From an uncultured Ideonella sp. (GTDB lineage Bacteria; Pseudomonadota; Gammaproteobacteria; Burkholderiales; Burkholderiaceae): 10,457 nucleotides of DNA. Each line of letters begins with the position of its first letter. Within the stretch, counting starts at the first letter, position 1. A program made the position numbers and the translations under genes. Location: NCBI GenBank assembly GCA_946479475.1, contig CAMLGG010000187.1:1-10457 (forward strand), read 5' to 3'. Under the pieces are notes generated by a model. The model saw only the letters and a list, made by a program, of their open reading frames with translations, made no database searches and was not told the origin of the DNA. Below are positions 1 to 10,457 of this stretch, piece after piece.

Positions 1-1142
1 CCGCCGAAGCCGAAGGAATTGCTCGCGACCGTGCGCAGCGATGCCGCGCGTCCTTCGGCGAGGTAGTTCGCCGTCAGTTGCGGATCGCGGGCCTGCAGGG
101 TGGCGCCGCCGGGCATCCACCCTTGCTGCAAGGACAGCAGCGAGATGCCCGCCTCCAGGGCGCCCGCCGCGCCCAGGGTGTGGCCGGTGGCGCCCTTGGT
201 CGAACTGCAAGGAATCCGCGGGCCCATCACCGCCCGGACAGCCTGGTCCTCGGCCGCGTCGTTGTTGGGCGTGGCGGTGCCGTGCAGGTTGAGGTAGTCC
301 ACCGAACCCAGGCCCGCCCGATCAAGCGCCTGCTGCATGGCGGCCGCCGCGCCGGCGCCATCCGGCAGCGGCGTGCTCATGTGGTAGCCATCGCTGCTTT
401 CGCCGAAGCCGAGCAGCCAGCCCGCAGGCGCAACGGCATCGCGATCCAGCAGCGCGAAGGCCGCTGCCTCGCCAAGCGAGAGGCCCTTGCGGGCCGCGTC
501 CCACGGGCGGCAGATCTCGGGCGACAGCAGCTCCAGCGAGTTGAAGCCGTACAGCGTCGTCAGGCACAGGCTGTCCACGCCGCCGACCACGGCCGCGTCG
601 ATCATGCCGAGCGAGAGCAGGCGGGCCGCCGTCGCGAACACCTTGGCGCCCGACGAGCAGGCCGTCGACACCGCCCAGGCCGGCCCGGCCAGGCCGAGGG
701 CCTCCTGCGTGAAGCGTGCGACCGAGGCGGTGTTGTGGGTGTGGGGGTAGTCGTGCCACGCGGGCAGTGCGCCGGTGGAGGCGTCACGCTCCCGATAGGC
801 CTTTTCGGTCTGCAGGATGCCCGAGGTGCTGGTGCCGATGAAGACCCCGACGCGATCCGCGCCGTGCCTGGCCGCCGCTGCCTCCACGGCCGCCATGAAG
901 CCATCGGCCTGCAGGCCCATCCAGGCGAGGCGGTTGTTGCGGCAGTCGTAGGCTTGCAGCCGCTCGGGCAACGTCACCTCGTCCACGCCTTCGGCCAGCC
1001 CCAGCCAGGCCTCGAAATGCGCCGTCTCGAAGCGTTGCAGGCGCAGGCCGCTGGCGCCGGCACGCAAGGCGTCGCCGTGCGCTGCGATGCCCTGGCCGAG
1101 CGCGCTCGTCATCGTGTATGCGGCCACCGGCCACCTGTTCAT
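1..1142 (-). CDS. Beta-ketoacyl-ACP synthase (KAS I/II type), aryl polyene type, 3' end cut by window edge
   Basis: This condensing enzyme extends an ACP-bound acyl chain with malonyl-ACP. About 380 residues are present and the frame stays open to base 1, so only a short C-terminal tail is missing for a family of about 400. The Cys-His-His triad is visible: Cys162 in STACSSG, His287 in LHGTAT, and His321 in TKGATGHTLGAAGA; the closing NSFGFGG motif sits at the window edge. The intact Cys means it is an active synthase rather than a chain-length-factor partner. The start is ATG at 1142, which overlaps the methyltransferase stop as ATGA, with GGAGAG at 1148-1153 as ribosome binding site. Its place behind the exporter and methyltransferase suggests an aryl polyene elongation synthase (ApeO- or ApeR-like), not housekeeping FabB/FabF. 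Synthase identity is certain; the exact Ape subclass is inferred. Confidence 0.93.
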   Translation of the reverse strand, partial: MNRWPVAAYTMTSALGQGIAAHGDALRAGASGLRLQRFETAHFEAWLGLAEGVDEVTLPERLQAYDCRNNRLAWMGLQADGFMAAVEAAAARHGADRVGVFIGTSTSGILQTEKAYRERDASTGALPAWHDYPHTHNTASVARFTQEALGLAGPAWAVSTACSSGAKVFATAARLLSLGMIDAAVVGGVDSLCLTTLYGFNSLELLSPEICRPWDAARKGLSLGEAAAFALLDRDAVAPAGWLLGFGESSDGYHMSTPLPDGAGAAAAMQQALDRAGLGSVDYLNLHGTATPNNDAAEDQAVRAVMGPRIPCSSTKGATGHTLGAAGALEAGISLLSLQQGWMPGGATLQARDPQLTANYLAEGRAASLRTVASNSFGFG

Positions 1143-1876
1143 GCCGTCTCTCCGGCTGGCGCGCCGAGGTCGGCCACCAGCAACACGTTCGCGAAAGGGG
1201 TGCCCTGGCTCATGGGCACGGGTTGCACGCGGAAGTCCAGGCTCTCCAGCAGCTGCCGCCAATCGTCCAGCGGGCGGCAGAAGGTCGGCGTCACGCGGTG
1301 GCCGCGCACCCGCGTCACGGTCCGGTCGACCCACTGGCTGATGCGGAATCGCCGCTGATCCGCCGCGTCGCCGATGCGAAGCAGGAGCCGCCCCGAGCGA
1401 CCCAGGGCCTGGCGGACGCGATGCAGCACCTCGGCCTGGGCCGCATGGGGAAAGTAGTGCAGCACATCGAGGATCACCACCACGTCGCTGGCGGGCAGAG
1501 CGACCTCGCGGATGTCTGCGCACAGCACCGCGGCCTGGACGCCCGAGGCCGCGAACGCGGCGCGCGCACGGTCTACATCGCGCGGCATCAGCTCGATGCC
1601 GGTATAGCGGGCCTGCACCGGAGGATGGGGCCAGTCCTGCGGCCAGCCATGGTCGCGATGGTGTTGATCGACCGCCGCCAGCAGGCTGGCCAGCAGGCCC
1701 TGGCCGCAGCCGAGGTCGAGCACCCGCGCGCGCGCCGGCAACAGCCCGCGCCGGAGCATGGCCTCGAAGACCGGGTCGCGGCCCAGCTTGCCGCGTGCGA
1801 AATGCCAGGCGAAGCGGCCGGCGCCGCGATAGGGCCGGCTGGCGCGCTCGTGCAGGGCCCGCCAGGTCCTATCCAT
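1139..1876 (-). CDS. Class I SAM-dependent methyltransferase
   Basis: A 245-residue Rossmann-type methyltransferase. Motif I, VLDLGCGQG, lies at about residues 52-60 and binds S-adenosylmethionine. The strand-2 acidic region is YTGIELMPRD (91-100), a CADI stretch sits at about 119-122, and the motif IV-like segment is VVVILDVLHYFPH (132-144). The C-terminal part (about 170-235) probably forms the substrate side. I chose ATG at 1876 because GGGAG lies about 10 bases upstream and the first residues look like a normal N-terminus; a GTG at 1903 has no ribosome binding site and would extend deep into the previous gene. The start overlaps the deacetylase stop by 8 bases and the stop overlaps the ketosynthase start. 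In APE pathways a methyltransferase can modify the aromatic head group; that role here is inferred, and O- versus C-methylation cannot be told. Confidence 0.9.
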   Translation of the reverse strand: MDRTWRALHERASRPYRGAGRFAWHFARGKLGRDPVFEAMLRRGLLPARARVLDLGCGQGLLASLLAAVDQHHRDHGWPQDWPHPPVQARYTGIELMPRDVDRARAAFAASGVQAAVLCADIREVALPASDVVVILDVLHYFPHAAQAEVLHRVRQALGRSGRLLLRIGDAADQRRFRISQWVDRTVTRVRGHRVTPTFCRPLDDWRQLLESLDFRVQPVPMSQGTPFANVLLVADLGAPAGETA

Positions 1877-2756
1877 GGGCGATGGCTCCCGGAAGGACGT
1901 CACCGAGCAGGACTGGACGAAGGCCAGCCCTGCGGCAATCTTCCAGCAGGCGCGGCAACACCTGCAGGATCACCGGCTCGCCTTGCGCGGTGCGGGCGGC
2001 GTGGCCATCGTGCAGCAGCAGGATGTCGCCGGCAGCCAGTCCGCGGGTCAGCCGCTGCAGCACGCGCTGCGGGTCGCCCTCGCGCGTGTCGAAGCCGCGC
2101 CGGGTCCAGCTCACCAGCGTCAGGCCCATGCGCGCCAGCACGGGCGCGAGGAAGGGATTGCGAAAGCCCGCCGGTGCGCGAAAGCACCGCGGGCGCTGCC
2201 CGGTCACCGACTCGATCAGCCGCTGCCCGCGGGCCAGTTCATCGGCATAGCCGCGAGGGCCGAGGAAGGAGAAGCTGTGGCGGTGCGAGGCCGTGTGGTT
2301 CTGGATCTCGTGGCCGCGGGCGACGATCTCGCGCGCCAGCTCGGGGTGCGCCGCAACGCGATCGGCGATGCAGAAGAAGCTGGCACGCGCGCCAACCTGG
2401 TCCAGCAGGGCCAGCACCTTGGGCGTCACCGCCGGATCGGGCCCGTCGTCGATCGTGATGGCGACTTCGCCCCTGCGCTGCGACGCCTCGGGCAGGCGGA
2501 CCAGGTTGAGACCGAACCAGGGGCTGCGCGGCCAAAGGGTGGCGCCGACGATGAGCCCATGGTTGGACAGCAGCAGCGCGAGCGCCCAGGCCGGCTGCCA
2601 CCAGGCCAGGGCCGCTGCGGTGGCATGGCAGATGAGCGTGGCCCGCAGGAACCAGGTCAGGCGCCGGGGAGCAGGCAAGGCGGATTGGTGATCGAGGGCG
2701 AGGGACATCGTCGGCAGGGCCCGGCGGCCGGCGCGCTCTCGTGGCGCGGCCGGCAT
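1869..2756 (-). CDS. Membrane-anchored polysaccharide deacetylase (NodB/CE4 family)
   Basis: A 295-residue protein with two likely N-terminal membrane segments (about 36-55 and 57-75) followed by a NodB homology domain. Visible CE4 motifs are TIDDGPDP (catalytic-base Asp103 and metal-ligand Asp104), NHTASH with metal ligands His154 and His158, RAPAG at 193-197, and ILLLHDGH around His249. All the residues needed for metal-dependent N- or O-deacetylation are present, so it should be active. It follows the exporter stop by 2 bases if ATG 2756 is used; GTG 2762, overlapping that stop as GTGA, is the alternative, and neither has a strong ribosome binding site. Its 3' end overlaps the methyltransferase start. 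The substrate is unknown. In this setting it could trim an acetylated sugar on the glycolipid carrier of the polyene, but that is inference. Family certain, role uncertain. Confidence 0.9.
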   Translation of the reverse strand: MPAAPRERAGRRALPTMSLALDHQSALPAPRRLTWFLRATLICHATAAALAWWQPAWALALLLSNHGLIVGATLWPRSPWFGLNLVRLPEASQRRGEVAITIDDGPDPAVTPKVLALLDQVGARASFFCIADRVAAHPELAREIVARGHEIQNHTASHRHSFSFLGPRGYADELARGQRLIESVTGQRPRCFRAPAGFRNPFLAPVLARMGLTLVSWTRRGFDTREGDPQRVLQRLTRGLAAGDILLLHDGHAARTAQGEPVILQVLPRLLEDCRRAGLRPVLLGDVLPGAIAHG

Positions 2757-2758
2757 TG

Positions 2759-5137
2759 TCACACAGGGGTTGCAGCGCCTTCGCCTTGCTTCCTAGGGGC
2801 AAACGCGGCCGAGATGACGAGGGCCAGCAGGGCCCCGGGCGCCACCACCTGGCCGATGGCGGCCAGCACCGGGATCCTGGACAAGGCGATGAGGCCGAAG
2901 GACAGCACCGCCGTGGCGTTGGCCAGCAGCAGCGAAGCCAGCGTGTCCTCGTCGTAGCCGCCGGCCGCAGGGGCATCGAAGAACAGCGCGTAGTTGGATC
3001 CGACGGCCACCACCAGCATCAGGCCGACCCAATGCAGGACCCCCAGCGGCACCTCGAGGGCTCGCAGGCCCCCCAGCACGAGCAGGACGGCCAGCGACAG
3101 CGGCAAGGCGACGCGCCAGGCCCGACGCAGGCTGCGCCGCCAGGCGGCCAGCAGCCCCAGCACGGCCAGCGCCCCGAGCGCGGCCTGCCAGCGCGCCGCC
3201 GACAGGTAGCCGGCATAGAGGCGGTCCAGCGCGGGCTTGACCTCCAGCACCTGGGCGCCCTGCACGTCGGCCAGCAGGCGACCGAGGGCCGCCGCATCCA
3301 TCGACTTCCCCGCCACCGGATGAACGGGCAGCAGCGCCGTCCAGGAGCCGTCGCCGCGGCTCAGCAGCATCGTCGACAGCAAGGGGCCGAGCGGGGAAGC
3401 GAGGATGTCGTCCCGATCGACCAGCGGTGCGCGCCGGGCCTGTTCGACCTCGGCCAGGAACGCGTCCAACGCAGCACCTTCCAACGGACCACCGCGCGTG
3501 GCCTGACGCAGGTTGGCGGCCAGGACGGGGGCCTCCGGCAGGCTCGCGCGACGGGCCGCCTGGGTGGCCTGGCTGGGCAGCAGGCGGGCGGGCGAATCGA
3601 AACCGGCCACCCGGCCGTCCGACACCGCCTGCTCCAGCCGCTGGCCGGCGGCCTCGGCGCCGCGCAGCGCCGCTTCGAGGTCGGCTCCGCGCACGAGCAC
3701 CAGGCCGCTGTCGTCGGCGGCCGAAAGGTCGCTGCGCAACTCCGCATCGAGGGCCAGCTCCGACTGCGGAACCGGGCTCAGGGCGGACAGCTCGGCCTGC
3801 CACAGGTGCCCGGGCGATGCCACCACCAGGGCCAGCGCGATCCCCGCCAGCACCAGCCAGGCCACGCGGCTGCGCTGGAGCCAGGGCAGCGCGCGCGCCA
3901 GTCCGCGGCCCAGGGGCCGGCGCCAGCGCGAGGGTGGAGCACCGTCCGGCATCAGCCGCGGCAGCAACCAGCGGGCGGCCGCGGCTGCGGCGACCAGCCC
4001 GCTCATCGAGAACACGCCGAGCTGGGCCAGCCCGGGGAAGCCGGAAAAGGCCAGCACGATGAAGCCGGTGAGCGAGGTGAACAGGCCCAGGCGGACCGTC
4101 GGCCAGCTTTCCTTCAGCCAGCGCCGCCAGCCGCTGGCGGGCGCTTCGGCCGCAGACCGCGGCTGCGCCTGGATGAGGTAGTAGATCGCGTAGTCCACCG
4201 CCTCGCCGATCAGGGTGCTGCCGAAGCCGAGCGTCATGCCGTGCACCTGGCCGAAGCCGGCGGCGACCGCCGCGATGCCGGCCAGCACGCCAGTCGCCAC
4301 CGGCAGGGCCGCAACCACGAGCGCGCGCAGCGAGCCGAAGGCCAGCCACAGCAGCCCGCCCATCAGCACCGCGCCGCTGGCCGCGAGCCAGACGACCTCG
4401 TGATGGATGCGCTCGCGGCTGCCGACGGCAAACACCGGAGCGCCGCTGAGCTGCAACTGCAGGCCATCGCGAGCCGATGGCGAGAAGGCGTCGCGCACCC
4501 GCTGCAGCGCACGCGCCTGGCCGTCCAGGTCCGACCCGGCGGCCCGTGTGCTGGCGAGCAGGAGCGCACGCGGGGCCTGGCGCGAGACCCACACCCCATC
4601 CTCCATCCGCGGCGCCTCGGCCGGGATCAGCGTCTCGGCGATGCGTTGCGTCTCGCCGGTGGGATCGCGGCCGAGCAAGGGCTTGATCGCCGAGCCGGCC
4701 GGCGTGCCGAGCAGCGAAAGGCTTTCGTCGATGGCATCGCGCAGGCCTTCGACCGTGAAGCGCGCCGGCGTGACGGCCGGGCTCAGGAGGTAGCGGTGGG
4801 CGACTATCCATTCGCCGGACTCGCGCCACGCGCCACGCTCGCCGTTCTGCACCTGCTCGAACAGGCCGCTGGCGCGCAGCTCGCGGGCCAGCGCCCTCGA
4901 GGCCTCGGCCCGCCGCGCCGCATCGCCGCCCGTGATGCCGATCAGCAGGGTGCGCGAAGGAGCACCTTGCTGGATCTGCTCGATCAGCAGTTGCTGGCCC
5001 GGGTCGGGGCTGGCGGGCAGGAAGGCCGACATGTCCGCCACGAAGGGGGCGCGGGCGATGAGCAGCGCACACGCCAGCAGGAAGGCCAGCCACGCGGCCA
5101 GCACCGGCCCGCGGCGCAGCGGCTTCATGCCTGTCAT
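2759..5137 (-). CDS. MMPL/RND-superfamily exporter (COG4258-like), aryl polyene transport
   Basis: A 792-residue inner-membrane transporter with the duplicated RND/MMPL layout. One membrane segment (about 11-29) precedes a large periplasmic loop (30-245), then five segments (about 248-396, including GEAVDYAIYY at 311-320). A second half follows: one segment (about 424-442), a periplasmic loop (445-648) and about five segments (652-780). Asp315 in the VDY motif is the likely proton-relay residue; the equivalent place in the second half reads VGSNYALFF and has no acid. The start is ATG 5137, overlapping the LolA-like stop as ATGA; a second ATG three codons on (5128) is possible. Exporters of this kind accompany LolA-like proteins in APE clusters (ApeM) and are thought to move the finished lipid or polyene from the inner membrane. 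Family sure, substrate inferred. Confidence 0.92.
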   Translation of the reverse strand: MTGMKPLRRGPVLAAWLAFLLACALLIARAPFVADMSAFLPASPDPGQQLLIEQIQQGAPSRTLLIGITGGDAARRAEASRALARELRASGLFEQVQNGERGAWRESGEWIVAHRYLLSPAVTPARFTVEGLRDAIDESLSLLGTPAGSAIKPLLGRDPTGETQRIAETLIPAEAPRMEDGVWVSRQAPRALLLASTRAAGSDLDGQARALQRVRDAFSPSARDGLQLQLSGAPVFAVGSRERIHHEVVWLAASGAVLMGGLLWLAFGSLRALVVAALPVATGVLAGIAAVAAGFGQVHGMTLGFGSTLIGEAVDYAIYYLIQAQPRSAAEAPASGWRRWLKESWPTVRLGLFTSLTGFIVLAFSGFPGLAQLGVFSMSGLVAAAAAARWLLPRLMPDGAPPSRWRRPLGRGLARALPWLQRSRVAWLVLAGIALALVVASPGHLWQAELSALSPVPQSELALDAELRSDLSAADDSGLVLVRGADLEAALRGAEAAGQRLEQAVSDGRVAGFDSPARLLPSQATQAARRASLPEAPVLAANLRQATRGGPLEGAALDAFLAEVEQARRAPLVDRDDILASPLGPLLSTMLLSRGDGSWTALLPVHPVAGKSMDAAALGRLLADVQGAQVLEVKPALDRLYAGYLSAARWQAALGALAVLGLLAAWRRSLRRAWRVALPLSLAVLLVLGGLRALEVPLGVLHWVGLMLVVAVGSNYALFFDAPAAGGYDEDTLASLLLANATAVLSFGLIALSRIPVLAAIGQVVAPGALLALVISAAFAPRKQGEGAATPV

Positions 5138-5736
5138 GGGGACGAGGCGCTGCGGGCCGCCGCCACCGGCTCGATGGTCATCACCGAGCGGTCGCCGTCG
5201 GCCATCTGCATCTCCATGCCCCGCACCTCGCCGCGGCGGCCGCTGACCAGGATGTAGCTGATCTGTGCCCCCAGGCGGGCGTCCTGCGGCTCCATCTGCA
5301 GCGTCCATTGCGCGGCGTTGCCGAGCAGCGTGAGCTTGAAGGCCTGGCGCAAGCTGGCGCCGTCGCCGGTGAGCGTGCCGCGGATCGCCTTGACCGTCAG
5401 GGCCAGTTCGGGGACGGCGTCGAGCGTCATCTGCCGCGTGCGGCCGTTGCGGGTGAGGCTGATCCGGTCGCCGTCGACCACCATCGATTCGGGCTTGGGC
5501 TCCAGGGTCTGCCGGGCGAACCGGGCGGGTGCCGTGAAGCTCAGCGTGCCGCTGGATTGCAGAGGCCGGGCCAGGCCCTGCACCTGCCGCTTCTCGACGA
5601 AGCGGGCCTCACCGGCCTTGTTCTGGGCCAGCAGGCCCATCAGTTCGGGCAGGTCCAGCGCCCAGGCCGGCGCCGCCGTCGTCAGTGCGCAGGCCAGTGC
5701 CGCCAGCCGGCGCTGCGTCTTCTTGCCAGAAGTCAT
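5134..5736 (-). CDS. LolA-like periplasmic outer-membrane lipoprotein carrier-related protein
   Basis: A 200-residue secreted protein. The N-terminus has a basic n-region (GKKTQRR), a hydrophobic core and an AWA cleavage site at about residue 26. The mature part resembles the LolA/LolB half-barrel: a FVEKRQVQGLARPLQSSGTL stretch is followed by alternating short strands (PARFARQTLEPKPESMVVDGD, typical of LolA-fold proteins) and a C-terminal GMEMQMADGDRSVMTIEP strand pair. LolA proteins shuttle lipids across the periplasm. In APE clusters such a protein (ApeL-like) pairs with the MMPL exporter that follows, with which it shares an ATGA overlap. The start at 5736 gives the only sensible signal peptide, but no Shine-Dalgarno sequence precedes it and it begins 128 bases inside the acyltransferase gene. 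Fold assignment is likely; precise cargo is inferred. Confidence 0.88.
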   Translation of the reverse strand: MTSGKKTQRRLAALACALTTAAPAWALDLPELMGLLAQNKAGEARFVEKRQVQGLARPLQSSGTLSFTAPARFARQTLEPKPESMVVDGDRISLTRNGRTRQMTLDAVPELALTVKAIRGTLTGDGASLRQAFKLTLLGNAAQWTLQMEPQDARLGAQISYILVSGRRGEVRGMEMQMADGDRSVMTIEPVAAARSASSP

Positions 5737-6658
5737 GGAAGTTGAACCAGTTGTACGGCGCGGCGCGGCAGATCGACTCGAGCCGCGCCGCGTAGGCGCG
5801 CGCTGCGTCGTGCAGCGCCCGCTCGCGCCCGTCGGCGTCCGGCGGGCTCGTGCCGAAGTCGGCCAGCGGCTCGAAGCGAAGCTCGTAGCGGCGGCCGCCA
5901 TTGTAGAGACCGGCCATGAAGACGACCGGCCGCCTCAGAAGCTGAGCCAGTCGCCAGGGGCCGAGCGCGAAAGGCGCCTCGCGGCCGAGGAAGGGGACGA
6001 GCAGCGTGTCGGTCCGGCCATCGGCGCCCGGCAGGCTGCGGTCGGCGAGCAGGCCCACCACGCCGCCGCCGTCGAGCCAGTCGCGGATGGCGAGCATGGC
6101 CGAGCGCTGGCCCAGCGCGATGATGCGCATCCGGAAGTCCGGCGCGATGGCCTGCAGCGTCTCGTTGATGAGGCGCGCGTTGTCGGGGTACATCGCCATC
6201 GCGATGTCCAGGCCGGCGAACTCGCGCCCGGCCGCCGAGAGCGCCTCGAAGCTGCCGACGTGGCCGCCGACGAGGATGGCGCCCCGGCCCTGCGCGAGCA
6301 CTTCATGCAGGTGCTCGGCGCCGGTGATCTCGAGATCGAAGCAGCGGCGCATGTCGCGCAGGAAGTAGACGCGGTCCAGCACCGTGGCGGCGAAGGTGAA
6401 CACGTGCCGCCAGCCATCGCGCCAGGTGGCCGGGCGGCCGAGGGCGCGCGGCAGGTAGCGGCGCGACTGACGCCGCGCCCCGCCGGAGAAGAGGAAGAAG
6501 TACGCGGTGATCGGCCACAACAGGCACCGCGCCACCGGCCGGCCGAGGTGCACCGCGATCCAGGCCATCAGCCTCAAGGTGCCGCGGTTGCTGCGCTCGC
6601 GCGTGCGGCTCCAGTCGGCGGACGACGGGGGCTGGTGCGCGCTCGGCGTGCGTGCCAT
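5609..6658 (-). CDS. LpxL/HtrB-type lysophospholipid acyltransferase family protein
   Basis: A 349-residue inner-membrane acyltransferase. A membrane-associating stretch (about 43-58, LLWPITAYFFLFSG) is followed by the acyltransferase domain with the HX4(D/E) catalytic motif as GGHVGSFEAL (His133, Glu138). Further family-like segments are MYPDNARLINETL and the closing YNWFNFHDFW that usually lies at the C-terminus of LpxL relatives. Here the frame runs about 43 codons past that motif in a Gly/Ala/Pro-rich tail inside the next gene. ATG 6658 follows the dehydratase stop by 5 bases, with GAGG about 9 bases upstream. In E. coli-type APE clusters this domain is fused behind a glycosyltransferase (ApeJ); here it stands alone. 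It probably transfers the polyene acyl chain to a lipid or glycolipid acceptor; acceptor and donor are inferred. Confidence 0.9.
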   Translation of the reverse strand: MARTPSAHQPPSSADWSRTRERSNRGTLRLMAWIAVHLGRPVARCLLWPITAYFFLFSGGARRQSRRYLPRALGRPATWRDGWRHVFTFAATVLDRVYFLRDMRRCFDLEITGAEHLHEVLAQGRGAILVGGHVGSFEALSAAGREFAGLDIAMAMYPDNARLINETLQAIAPDFRMRIIALGQRSAMLAIRDWLDGGGVVGLLADRSLPGADGRTDTLLVPFLGREAPFALGPWRLAQLLRRPVVFMAGLYNGGRRYELRFEPLADFGTSPPDADGRERALHDAARAYAARLESICRAAPYNWFNFHDFWQEDAAPAGGTGLRTDDGGAGLGAGPARTDGPAGPEQGR

Positions 6659-6663
6659 GGCGA

Positions 6664-6990
6664 TCAGCCTCGCAACTGGCCGCGCACGGCGACCACGGCG
6701 CCGCAGTGGAGCTCGAAATCCACGCCGGCGTCCCGCTGCATCAGCACGACCGTGACCGGCAGGTCCTGCCCGGTGGGCATCAGCGGGCTGAGGAACTTGA
6801 CGTTGTCGATGCGCGGCGAACTGCCCAGCGAGCTCTTCAGCGGGTCGATCGAGACCGCCGCTTCGAGCACCTCCCCGAGCAACACCACGCCGGGGTAGAC
6901 CGGCTGCCCCGGGAAGTGCCCGGCGAGACTGGGATGCGCGGCCGGCAGCCGGCGATCCACTTGCCAGCGCTGGCCGGCGGAAGCGGTCAT
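6664..6990 (-). CDS. FabZ/FabA-like hotdog dehydratase, ApeI-like
   Basis: A 108-residue single hotdog domain, shorter than FabZ (about 150) and close to the small dehydratase subunit of APE systems. The signature is HPSLAGHFPGQPVYPGVVLL, with catalytic His25 in HFPG. FabZ carries its catalytic Glu 14 residues after this His; that position is Gly39 here, with Glu40 next to it. The family removes water from 3-hydroxyacyl-ACP to give the trans-enoyl chain that makes the conjugated polyene. APE dehydratases work as heterodimers (ApeI with ApeP), so a partner is expected outside the window. The ATG overlaps the ligase stop as ATGA, with AGGA just upstream. Function is well supported by family and context; catalytic details are inference. 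Confidence 0.9.
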   Translation of the reverse strand: MTASAGQRWQVDRRLPAAHPSLAGHFPGQPVYPGVVLLGEVLEAAVSIDPLKSSLGSSPRIDNVKFLSPLMPTGQDLPVTVVLMQRDAGVDFELHCGAVVAVRGQLRG

Positions 6991-8360
6991 GTCCTGGCCC
7001 GGGCGAGCTGCGCCTGCGCGAACGTGCGCAGCGTGGCGGACGTGAGCTTGCCGGTCGCCTCGCGCGGCAGCTGCTCGACATGCACGACCTTGCGCGGCAC
7101 GAACGCCGGCTCCAGCACCTGACGCAGGCCGGCGATCACCTGGGCGGCGCTGAGCTCGGGCGCGACGACGAAGGCCACCGGGCGCACGACCCCCTCGACC
7201 ACCTCGTCGGGCATCCAGAAGCAGCCGTCCTGCACGCCCGCAAGCCGGTTGAGCTGGAAATTGAGGAAGGCCAGCGAGCTGCGCTTGCCGGCCACGTGGA
7301 TCAGGTCGTTGGAGCGGCCCAGCAGCCGGAAGCGCTGCTCATCCTGCAACTCCAGCACGTCGGCCAGCGGCGTCGGCTCGACCACGTGGCCGCCGTGCAC
7401 GAGGAAGCGCTCGCCTTCTGCACCCTCCTCCCGCCACACGCGCAGGCCGCTGAACGTGCGCCACTGGTCGCCTTGCGAGGTGCGGCGCGTGGCCACCTGG
7501 CCGGCCTCGGTGCAGCCATAGATCTCGACCAGCACGCCGCTGAAAGCGGCCTCCGCCTGCTCGGCCAACTGGGGCGACAGCGGCGCGGTGGCGCTCAGCA
7601 CGAGATCGGTCGGCGGCAGGGCGACGCCGGACTGCAGCAGCGTCTTCAGGTGGAACGGCGTCGTCACCAGCGCGCGCGGGCGCGGCACGCGGGCCAGCGC
7701 ATCGGCAATGTCCGCCGGGTAGAACGGGCGGCCGCTGTCGAAGGCGGCGCCGCCCAGCAGGGGCAGCAGCACGCTGGATTCGAGGCCGTAGCTGTGCTGC
7801 GGGGGTACGGAGGCGACGACCGTCAGGCCGGACAGGTCGGACTGCCCGAGCCACTCGGCCAGCCGCTCGGCCTCGGCCGCGATGTTGGCCCGCAGCGGCC
7901 CCCACGCCTTGGTGTGGGGCTGCGGCACACCGGTCGAGCCGGAGGTCATCAGGCAGACGGCCCCGGCGCTCTCGTCGAGGCTCGGCATCCCGGCCGGCGC
8001 CCCGGCATCGGGCCAGGGCGCATCGACGAGTTCCACCGCCAGGCCCGGCGGGGGCGCGAAGGCCGGGTCGTCGACCAGGGCCACCAGCGATTCGCCGGGG
8101 CGCGCCACCTGCGCCAGCGTCTGCGGCATGGCATTGGGCGGCAGGAGGCAGACGTCGCCGCGGGTCCAGGCGGCCGCCAGTGCGACGGCGAAGGTATAGC
8201 GATCGGCGCAGAGGTTCACCACCCGCGCCGCCGGCGGCAGGCGGCTCGCCAGGCGTTGCGCATCGGCCAGCAACTGCGCGCCGCTGACCGGCTCGCCGTG
8301 GCGCCAGGCGACCGGCGATCGGAGGTCGCGCCCCTGCCAGAGGGGCTGCGGGCCGCTCAT
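6987..8360 (-). CDS. AMP-dependent acyl/aryl-CoA or ACP ligase (ANL superfamily), ApeH-like
   Basis: A 457-residue adenylating enzyme, short for the ANL family. Visible core motifs are LMTSGSTGVPQPHTK (P-loop-like A3, about 137-151), EIYGCTEAG (A5, 279-287), LLGRSNDLIHVAGKR (A7/A8 hinge, 347-360) and LPREATGKLT with the A10 lysine Lys438. These show that it can form an acyl-adenylate and pass the acyl group to a thiol. In APE pathways this enzyme activates the aromatic starter (such as 4-hydroxybenzoate or a coumarate-type acid) and loads it onto the ACP, whose gene lies two genes upstream. The start is ATG 8360, overlapping the membrane-protein stop as ATGA. The substrate cannot be read from the sequence, and no starter-making enzyme such as chorismate lyase or an aromatic ammonia-lyase is in the window. 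Confidence 0.92.
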   Translation of the reverse strand: MSGPQPLWQGRDLRSPVAWRHGEPVSGAQLLADAQRLASRLPPAARVVNLCADRYTFAVALAAAWTRGDVCLLPPNAMPQTLAQVARPGESLVALVDDPAFAPPPGLAVELVDAPWPDAGAPAGMPSLDESAGAVCLMTSGSTGVPQPHTKAWGPLRANIAAEAERLAEWLGQSDLSGLTVVASVPPQHSYGLESSVLLPLLGGAAFDSGRPFYPADIADALARVPRPRALVTTPFHLKTLLQSGVALPPTDLVLSATAPLSPQLAEQAEAAFSGVLVEIYGCTEAGQVATRRTSQGDQWRTFSGLRVWREEGAEGERFLVHGGHVVEPTPLADVLELQDEQRFRLLGRSNDLIHVAGKRSSLAFLNFQLNRLAGVQDGCFWMPDEVVEGVVRPVAFVVAPELSAAQVIAGLRQVLEPAFVPRKVVHVEQLPREATGKLTSATLRTFAQAQLARART

Positions 8361-8980
8361 GGCGCCTCGGCCGCGGGCGACCGGCGGAAGGCGCGCATCG
8401 CGGTGACGATCGGCACCCGTTCGAACTCGGGGTGCAGCCAGTAGCGCAGGCGCCACTCGCCGACCATCATCAGCACCATCGCCACCGGCGTGACGAGGTT
8501 GGCGAAGGCCGACCACCAGGCCCACGGCGCCCAGGCGTAAAGCGCCAGCGAGGCCGCCACCATGGCCGTGAAGTAGGCGACCCAGGCCTGCGTCACTGCA
8601 CGGGTGTACGCATGCTTCGCCTCGGGCATGTGGCCACCATGCACCCGCAACGCCACCTTGGTGATCATCGGGACCTGCCCCGTGCGCAGGGTGGCGGCAA
8701 AGGCCACGCCGAGCGCGGCGTGGATGCCGGCGTGCTGCAGGAGGTACATGCGCTGGAGGTCGGACATGCTGCCCGCGACCGCCAGGTAGACGAGGCCCCC
8801 GGCCGCCCCCAGCAGCATCAGCCAGCGACGCTTGGCCACGGCGTAGCCCGCGAGCGAAAGCAGCAGCGGCCCCCAGACGATGGCCAGCGCCCAGGCCGAG
8901 CCGGCCGCATGGACCGTCAGCCAGTGGGCGAGCAGCTCGTACACGACGACCGCGAGCGCCACGACCGCGAGGCGCCCCAT
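8357..8980 (-). CDS. COG4648-type integral membrane protein of aryl polyene clusters
   Basis: A 207-residue inner-membrane protein with about six predicted membrane segments (roughly 5-24, 27-47, 53-71, 84-98, 131-150, 155-175). A conserved-looking polar loop lies at about 100-128 and holds several His and basic residues (LRVHGGHMPEAKHAYTR). This matches the predicted membrane protein that sits between ACP and ligase in APE and xanthomonadin-type clusters; its biochemical role is not established. I chose ATG 8980, 9 bases after an AGGTGGAG ribosome binding site; a GTG at 8995 inside that site is the alternative. It starts 19 bases after the ACP stop, and its stop overlaps the ligase start. 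The identification rests on topology, length and position, so the function stays open. Confidence 0.85.
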   Translation of the reverse strand: MGRLAVVALAVVVYELLAHWLTVHAAGSAWALAIVWGPLLLSLAGYAVAKRRWLMLLGAAGGLVYLAVAGSMSDLQRMYLLQHAGIHAALGVAFAATLRTGQVPMITKVALRVHGGHMPEAKHAYTRAVTQAWVAYFTAMVAASLALYAWAPWAWWSAFANLVTPVAMVLMMVGEWRLRYWLHPEFERVPIVTAMRAFRRSPAAEAP

Positions 8981-8989
8981 GTTCCCGTG

Positions 8990-8997
8990 CTCCACCT
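8990..8997 (-). promoter_or_regulatory. Ribosome binding site of the COG4648-type gene
   Basis: AGGTGGAG on the minus strand lies 9 bases before ATG 8980. It decides that start over GTG 8995, which falls inside the site itself. Confidence 0.6.
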
Positions 8998-8999
8998 CT

Positions 9000-9299
9000 T
9001 CAGCGCGTGCGGTGGGCCGCCACGTGGGCGGCCAGGGTGCGCAGCGACTGGAAGATCTCGTGGTTGCGCTCGTCGTCGGAGCGCAGCTCGAAGCCGTACT
9101 TGCGCGACACCTCGAGCGCGAGCTCGAGGATGTCTATCGAATCGAGGCCAAGGCCGTCGCCGTACAGTTGTGCAGCGGGGTCTATCGTCTCGGCGGCCTG
9201 CTCCAGGTTCAGCGCGCTCACGCAGAGCTCGGCGAGCTCGCGTTCCAGCCCCGACAGGTCCGTGCCGCCGGCCTGGTTCGCTGCGTTGGCTGCTGTCAT
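9000..9299 (-). CDS. Acyl carrier protein, ApeE-like
   Basis: A 99-residue ACP, first gene of the operon. The phosphopantetheine attachment site is Ser54 in GLGLDSIDILEL, with Ile after the Asp-Ser where many ACPs have Leu. The surroundings fit a four-helix ACP: helix 1 at about residues 14-34, the loop with LYGDGLGLD, helix 2 from 55 and a C-terminal helix near 84-97. The first 12 residues are a flexible Ala/Asn-rich lead. It should carry the aryl starter and growing polyene chain after 4'-phosphopantetheinylation. The ATG at 9299 has GAGAGGG 8 bases upstream. Classical APE clusters have two adjacent ACP genes; only one is present here. ACP identity is secure; the subtype follows from the neighbours. 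Confidence 0.95.
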   Translation of the reverse strand: MTAANAANQAGGTDLSGLERELAELCVSALNLEQAAETIDPAAQLYGDGLGLDSIDILELALEVSRKYGFELRSDDERNHEIFQSLRTLAAHVAAHRTR

Positions 9300-9307
9300 C
9301 GTGTCAT

Positions 9308-9314
9308 CCCTCTC
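9308..9314 (-). promoter_or_regulatory. Ribosome binding site of the acyl carrier protein gene
   Basis: GAGAGGG on the minus strand lies 8 bases before ATG 9299. It is the strongest ribosome binding site in the operon, as fits the leading gene. Confidence 0.65.
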
Positions 9315-9357
9315 TCGCCTGGGTCCGGCGCTCGATCAGCTGAATTCCGAACCAGGC

Positions 9358-9363
9358 ATTTTA
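9358..9363 (-). promoter_or_regulatory. Candidate -10 element for the pigment operon
   Basis: TAAAAT on the minus strand matches the sigma-70 -10 consensus at five of six bases and is the only AT-rich hexamer in the spacer. No good -35 lies at 16-18 bases; TCGACG at 19 bases matches four of six. It would put the transcript start about 50 bases before the ACP ATG. An 8-base palindrome TCAGCTGA (9336-9343) lies in the predicted leader and could be an operator. Weak evidence. Confidence 0.3.
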
Positions 9364-9368
9364 CGTCG

Positions 9369-9395
9369 CGGCCCGCCCCAGTCGTCGACGGGCCG
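9369..9395 (-). terminator. Inverted repeat behind tex, possible transcription terminator
   Basis: CGGCCCG at 9369-9375 and CGGGCCG at 9389-9395 form a perfect 7-base-pair stem with a 13-base loop. No T-tract follows in the minus direction (the next bases read CGACGTAAAAT), so it is not a classical intrinsic terminator. It could slow polymerase behind tex, or be the left part of the larger repeat next to it. Confidence 0.35.
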
Positions 9396-9448
9396 CCCCT
9401 GGGCGACTGACGCCCTTGGGGGACCGACGCCGAAGGCGGCGCAGGGGC
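9395..9448. repeat. Nested palindromic intergenic element behind tex
   Basis: GCCCCTG at 9395-9401 pairs with CAGGGGC at 9442-9448 (7 base pairs). Inside lie two further hairpins: GGGCG/CGCCC (9401-9415, 5-base loop) and CGCCG/CGGCG (9428-9441, 4-base loop). Together they could fold as a three-way junction beginning 9 bases after the tex stop. It looks like the GC-rich palindromic elements found between genes in many Burkholderiales, but whether copies occur elsewhere in this genome cannot be seen here. Confidence 0.5.
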
Positions 9449-9456
9449 TCGGTTTC

Positions 9457-10457
<1,001 letters not shown>

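Follow-up and report, generated by a model that had tools for sequence, protein, structure and literature searches.

An uncultured Ideonella sp. contig (CAMLGG010000187.1, assembly GCA_946479475.1) raises the question of whether its aryl-polyene-like operon is a rearranged variant of a known pathway or an ordinary member of a described family. The stretch analyzed, positions 1 to 10,457, is called the window below. On the minus strand, the operon runs from position 9299 to the left window edge (base 1). Its ten tightly packed genes encode, in order of transcription, an acyl carrier protein (ACP), a COG4648-like protein, a ligase, a dehydratase, an LpxL-like acyltransferase, a LolA-like protein, an MMPL exporter, a deacetylase, a methyltransferase, and a ketosynthase. 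Based on the results below, the window very probably holds the upstream half of an aryl-polyene cluster of the ordinary arc/xanthomonadin type. It comes from a bacterium of the Burkholderiales, and its exporter is most similar to that of Ideonella.

Gene order is shared with arc loci and other relatives

Relatives of the operon were fetched from species genomes by exporter similarity, the best 80 of at least 572 confirmed stretches were analyzed, and gene order was matched across these loci at an E value of 1e-8. The window carries the nine-gene order that marks the arc/xanthomonadin type (ACP, COG4648-like protein, ligase, dehydratase, acyltransferase, LolA-like protein, exporter, deacetylase, and methyltransferase), and this order is kept in 65 of the 80 loci. 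The remaining 15 are cut by contig ends, have one gene unmatched, or, as in L043 and L044, hold another cluster. The ketosynthase gene follows the methyltransferase gene, as in the window, in 16 of the 65 nine-gene loci. A chain-length factor (CLF)-like gene, a second dehydratase gene, and a ketoreductase gene come next after it in 15 of these, and the sixteenth (L068) stops after its CLF-like match. Azohydromonas caseinilytica (L055) and Aquabacterium terrae (L031) are named examples of the layout. Because ten families in a single order recur in other genomes, the arrangement is not due to chance.

The same layout has been published for the pigment loci of Azoarcus sp. BH72, termed arc (azo0253-0264 and azo3910-3921; PMC3949708, which, like the two other papers cited here, PMC8253772 and PMC3691225, is used in excerpt). 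In that account azo0253-0262 match the first nine genes of the window in the same order, with arcO in addition; the series reads ACP, hypothetical protein, ligase, dehydratase, acyltransferase, LolA, exporter, deacetylase, and methyltransferase. The other set, arc locus 1, has ketosynthase, CLF, dehydratase, and ketoreductase genes together with glycosyltransferase, acyltransferase, chorismatase, and halogenase (arcA) genes. Mutants in arcT (the ligase gene of the nine-gene locus) and in arcK (the ketosynthase gene of the other locus) were colorless, a yellow aryl-polyene product was reported for Azoarcus, and the product, arcuflavin, was described as a xanthomonadin-dialkylresorcinol hybrid. 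Clusters of this kind were also named in Variovorax paradoxus, Dechloromonas aromatica, and Sideroxydans lithotrophicus (PMC3949708).

All ten window genes, in the same order, are present on a plasmid of Azospirillum ramasamyi (NZ_CP029832.1, 56978-82270), where the encoded proteins are 34-62% identical to those of the window. The ten are followed there by genes for a CLF, a dehydratase, FabG, a GT2 glycosyltransferase, an acyltransferase, and an oxidoreductase. The Azospirillum gene at the position of the LpxL-like acyltransferase is annotated "acyl-CoA synthetase," yet its product shares 45% identity with the window acyltransferase.

An earlier note on this DNA had named the ten genes in one direction and placed them in the aryl-polyene type. 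Both statements are borne out, the first by open reading frames, Pfam and NCBIfam matches, and homology to relatives, and the second by the families and by the order shared with the arc loci and Azospirillum. The note went on to call the operon rearranged, with a non-standard gene set and a variant pathway. This part did not hold up, since 65 of 80 loci keep the nine-gene order and the arc layout is published; judged from gene content and order, the layout is one already described for the arc/xanthomonadin-like branch and is not a rearrangement. As to close relatives with exactly this layout and a known product, which the note took as evidence against its reading, Azoarcus arcuflavin supplies a product, but from a more distant genus and with a layout that is, in the published excerpt, almost rather than exactly the same.

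Several observations weigh against this assignment. The full ten-gene order, ketosynthase included, is found in only 16 of the 65 nine-gene loci, and in 51 of the 80 loci, of which 41 are titled Variovorax, the methyltransferase gene is followed by dehydratase and ketoreductase genes with no ketosynthase gene on the same strand. Sampling by exporter similarity favors close relatives: 41 of the 80 fetched loci are Variovorax by title, and 41 of the 65 nine-gene loci are Variovorax and lack a ketosynthase gene at that place. In Azoarcus, the ketosynthase gene arcK lies in the second locus, whereas that of the window directly follows the methyltransferase gene, and the unannotated arcO sits between exporter and deacetylase genes, where the window offers no space for such a gene (PMC3949708). 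Finally, the window stops inside the ketosynthase gene at base 1, so that its own CLF, ketoreductase, and second dehydratase genes are expected but unseen. In 77 loci no more than 350 nt separates the exporter and deacetylase matches, which leaves too little space for a protein the size of ApeN (194 amino acids; the size of arcO does not appear in the excerpt). In one Variovorax genome, the best match to the window ketosynthase, 53% identical, sits elsewhere.

Genes of the operon

The window proteins were assigned to families with Pfam and NCBIfam profiles. The ACP (9000..9299; ArcV/ApeE counterpart) matches PF00550 and, above the cut-off, NF006617, and by BLAST it is 44% identical to the first ACP of an Escherichia coli-type ape locus (L093). 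The COG4648-like protein (8357..8995; ArcU/ApeG counterpart) has no Pfam or NCBIfam match. It is 37-54% identical to the same-position stretches in relatives and weakly similar to the same-position E. coli protein (26%, E 9e-9). The AMP-forming aryl acid:ACP ligase (6987..8360; ArcT/ApeH counterpart; PF00501 and PF13193) is 46% identical to its Azospirillum counterpart. The short hotdog dehydratase (6664..6990; ArcS/ApeI counterpart) matches PF21089, PF07977, and FabZ models, all below cut-offs; the two Pfam matches (PKS_DH_N and FabA/FabZ) are weak and fall just under the curated cut-off, and the similarity to the E. coli counterpart is 37% over 60 residues (E 3e-6). The calls for the COG4648-like protein and the dehydratase are thus supported by position and by the same-position relatives. 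Searches of PDB with the ligase and the dehydratase returned weak or partial matches only.

The dehydratase and ligase genes share 4 nt at the ligase stop (6987-6990) but are distinct in the window; in 57 (41 of them Variovorax) of the 72 loci that match both, they form a single stop-free open frame. From the reading frames, this recurrent single frame suggests that the two proteins work closely together.

The LpxL-like acyltransferase (5609..6658; PF03279, Lip_A_acyltrans) is the counterpart of ArcR and of the C-terminal half of ApeJ. It is followed by the LolA-like periplasmic carrier (5134..5736; ArcQ/ApeL counterpart), which matches PF19574 (LolA_3) and PF03548 (LolA), and NF053544 below the cut-off. 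Of the ten operon genes, a gene caller based on codon usage listed nine; it missed the LolA-like gene because of its 128-nt overlap with the acyltransferase frame, so this call rests on family and homology matches. The acyltransferase frame enters the LolA-like gene at 5609-5736, and the window acyltransferase has a C-terminal extension that is absent in six aligned relatives. When extrapolated from matches, the corresponding overlap is at most 31 nt in 74 loci.

The MMPL/RND exporter (2759..5137; ArcP/ApeM counterpart; PF03176) has an Ideonella protein as its closest named match (82%), and another database protein is 92% identical. In kin searches of 299 and 149 genomes, the best full-length exporter match was 62% (one fragment, 70%) and the best ligase match 65%, so that no near neighbor such as Ideonella was among them. 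The polysaccharide deacetylase family protein (1869..2762; ArcN counterpart; PF01522, Polysacc_deac_1) contains the stretches TIDDGPDP and HTASH, which we take to be its catalytic motifs; a deacetylase is matched in 77 of the 80 loci. The S-adenosylmethionine-dependent methyltransferase (1139..1903; ArcM counterpart) matches PF13649 and PF13489.

The beta-ketoacyl-ACP synthase (3..1142; ArcK/ApeO counterpart) matches NF006618 above the cut-off and is truncated by the window edge about 12-13 residues short of its end. Its translation holds STACSSG, LHGTATP, and GATGHT, presumably the Cys-His-His active-site stretches of an ArcK/ApeO-type enzyme. Its second-best match in PDB is 6qsp_A (E 3.5e-68), which we take to be ApeO of X. 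doucetiae.

Genes absent from the operon and genes expected beyond it

The gene set and gene functions of the E. coli cluster (apeA-R) were taken from the excerpt of PMC8253772. As in the window, that cluster runs through ACP, COG4648, ligase, dehydratase, acyltransferase, LolA, and exporter genes to a ketosynthase gene. Unlike the window, it has a second ACP (ApeF), a glycosyltransferase fused to the acyltransferase (ApeJ), a thioesterase (ApeK), and a DUF3261 protein (ApeN); it lists no deacetylase, and its methyltransferase gene lies near the opposite end. None of the second ACP, the N-terminal glycosyltransferase domain, the thioesterase, and the small lipoprotein is present at its E. coli place in the window, that is, between the ACP and ketosynthase genes. 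Thus, the earlier note was right, relative to the E. coli layout, that these four are missing from their usual places.

One explanation is that the operon is a genuine variant of the E. coli type that lost all four and so relies on a new carrier or release step. The absence of each from its place in Table 1 of PMC8253772 agrees with this, yet other evidence makes it very unlikely. L093 has no annotation, so its genes were named by position from the same table, as excerpted, and compared by BLAST. None of the 80 loci matched its second ACP, thioesterase, or DUF3261-position protein at an E value of 1e-3, in single-sequence searches that distant forms could escape, which argues against loss in a single genome. 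The second ACP had one match each in L094 and in L095, where the thioesterase and DUF3261-position proteins had none (the Caballeronia locus L095, also without annotation, served in this search only). Given no match in 80 loci, this branch seems typically to lack the second ACP, thioesterase, and lipoprotein of the E. coli type. Moreover, the arc cluster has been published in nearly this form (PMC3949708), and the Lysobacter cluster is likewise described, in the excerpt, as lacking a thioesterase (PMC3691225).

The fourth, the glycosyltransferase half of ApeJ, is matched by a stand-alone gene in 43 of the 80 loci; a number of the 80 end before that position. Residues 1-244 of the L093 ApeJ-position protein (558 amino acids) match the stand-alone GT2 glycosyltransferase of the Methylibium locus L057 (38%, E 4e-49), and residues 235-550 match the window acyltransferase (30%, E 4e-34). 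Both halves were found in 40 loci, always on opposite strands and 7.4 to 13.2 kb apart. By these alignments, the two halves of E. coli ApeJ are encoded separately here, and in the relatives the glycosyltransferase has a gene of its own.

Relatives also indicate what would lie beyond base 1. In L057, the ketosynthase gene is followed by genes for a protein of the CLF-like family PF13723, a protein in the dehydratase position that Pfam does not match, a FabG-like reductase, and a Na/H exchanger. The opposite strand encodes the GT2 glycosyltransferase, an acyltransferase, MipA, an FkbO/Hyg5-type chorismatase, and a last protein that has no Pfam match and is cut by the locus end. This order equals arcK-J-I-H-G plus arcE-D-C-B-A of Azoarcus as excerpted, apart from arcF, which is unseen in L057; this one locus therefore holds both Azoarcus gene sets, but it has no methyltransferase match. 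Across the 80 loci, some of which end early, an XanB2-type chorismatase was matched in 34, a stand-alone GT2 glycosyltransferase in 43, and a second acyltransferase in 43. The earlier note had suggested that the missing genes might lie beyond the window. In relatives this is so for the CLF-like protein, second dehydratase, and ketoreductase, directly downstream, and for the glycosyltransferase, further on and on the other strand; it is not so for the E. coli-kind second ACP, thioesterase, and lipoprotein.

The xanthomonadin-like cluster of Lysobacter enzymogenes has the same relative order as the window in ORF6-11 (ACP, hypothetical protein, dehydratase, acyltransferase, LolA-like carrier, and exporter). 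By ORF numbers, a dehydratase, a ketoreductase, a hypothetical protein, a dolichyl-phosphate mannose synthase-like protein, a CLF-like protein, and a ketosynthase come next (PMC3691225). In that excerpt the ketosynthase has a short CLF-like partner, an ACP and two dehydratases are present, a methyltransferase is reported missing, no deacetylase is named, and protection from light and peroxide is reported.

A flexirubin-type cluster is extremely improbable. The LolA-like protein's match to the flexirubin LolA2 model NF053544, which lies below the cut-off, speaks for it, but both the named relatives and the order of the ten genes place the operon in the arc/xanthomonadin-like branch of Proteobacteria. 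Clusters for flexirubins include an ammonia-lyase gene.

Flanking sequence and other clusters

Upstream of the operon, on the same strand, lies the C-terminal part of an S1/HHH protein (9457..10455; PF12836, PF17674, and PF00575), presumably Tex; this gene is outside the pathway. A promoter and terminator scan of 9200-9560 found nothing, and several operon start codons are uncertain.

Among the fetched loci, L043 and L044 contain a second type of cluster. That of L043 (9-18.5 kb) has ACP, COG4648-like, exporter, ketosynthase, CLF-like, FAD/halogenase-like, PAP2, second ACP, and second ketosynthase genes, with no ligase match. L044 has ACP, COG4648, exporter, ketosynthase, and CLF-like matches, also with no ligase match. 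In L046, L047, L054, L059, L060, and L070, a second ketosynthase and CLF-like pair lies beyond the first cluster.

Discussion

The gene identities, order, and conservation are established here, and the working of the pathway is inferred from published homologues. In an arc/xanthomonadin-type cluster, the ligase would load a hydroxybenzoate onto the single ACP. The ketosynthase and a short CLF partner, with a ketoreductase and two dehydratases, would extend it into a conjugated polyene; the CLF partner, reductase, and second dehydratase are expected to be encoded just left of base 1. The methyltransferase would methylate the aryl head, and the LpxL-like acyltransferase, a separately encoded glycosyltransferase, and a second acyltransferase would attach the polyene to a lipid. 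The MMPL exporter and the LolA-like carrier would then move the polyene lipid to the outer membrane.

As a speculative extension that we hold to be improbable, the deacetylase and the stand-alone glycosyltransferase could build an amino-sugar lipid anchor, in which an N-acetyl hexosamine is placed on a lipid and then deacetylated, and the LpxL-like acyltransferase could then link the polyene to the amine so exposed. Such a role would account for the retention of the deacetylase in 77 of 80 loci and for its absence from the E. coli set. The support comes from this joint conservation and from a weak score of the L057 glycosyltransferase against the PpgS model (41 bits, versus a cut-off of 370). 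A literature search found no paper joining aryl polyene, Burkholderiales, and polysaccharide deacetylase.

Measured against the E. coli layout, an ordinary operon of the arc/xanthomonadin type had looked rearranged. With the assignment made here, that layout is less likely to be taken for a rearranged cluster of the E. coli type, and the correspondence of ApeJ to two separate genes is of modest help in mapping gene functions between the two branches.

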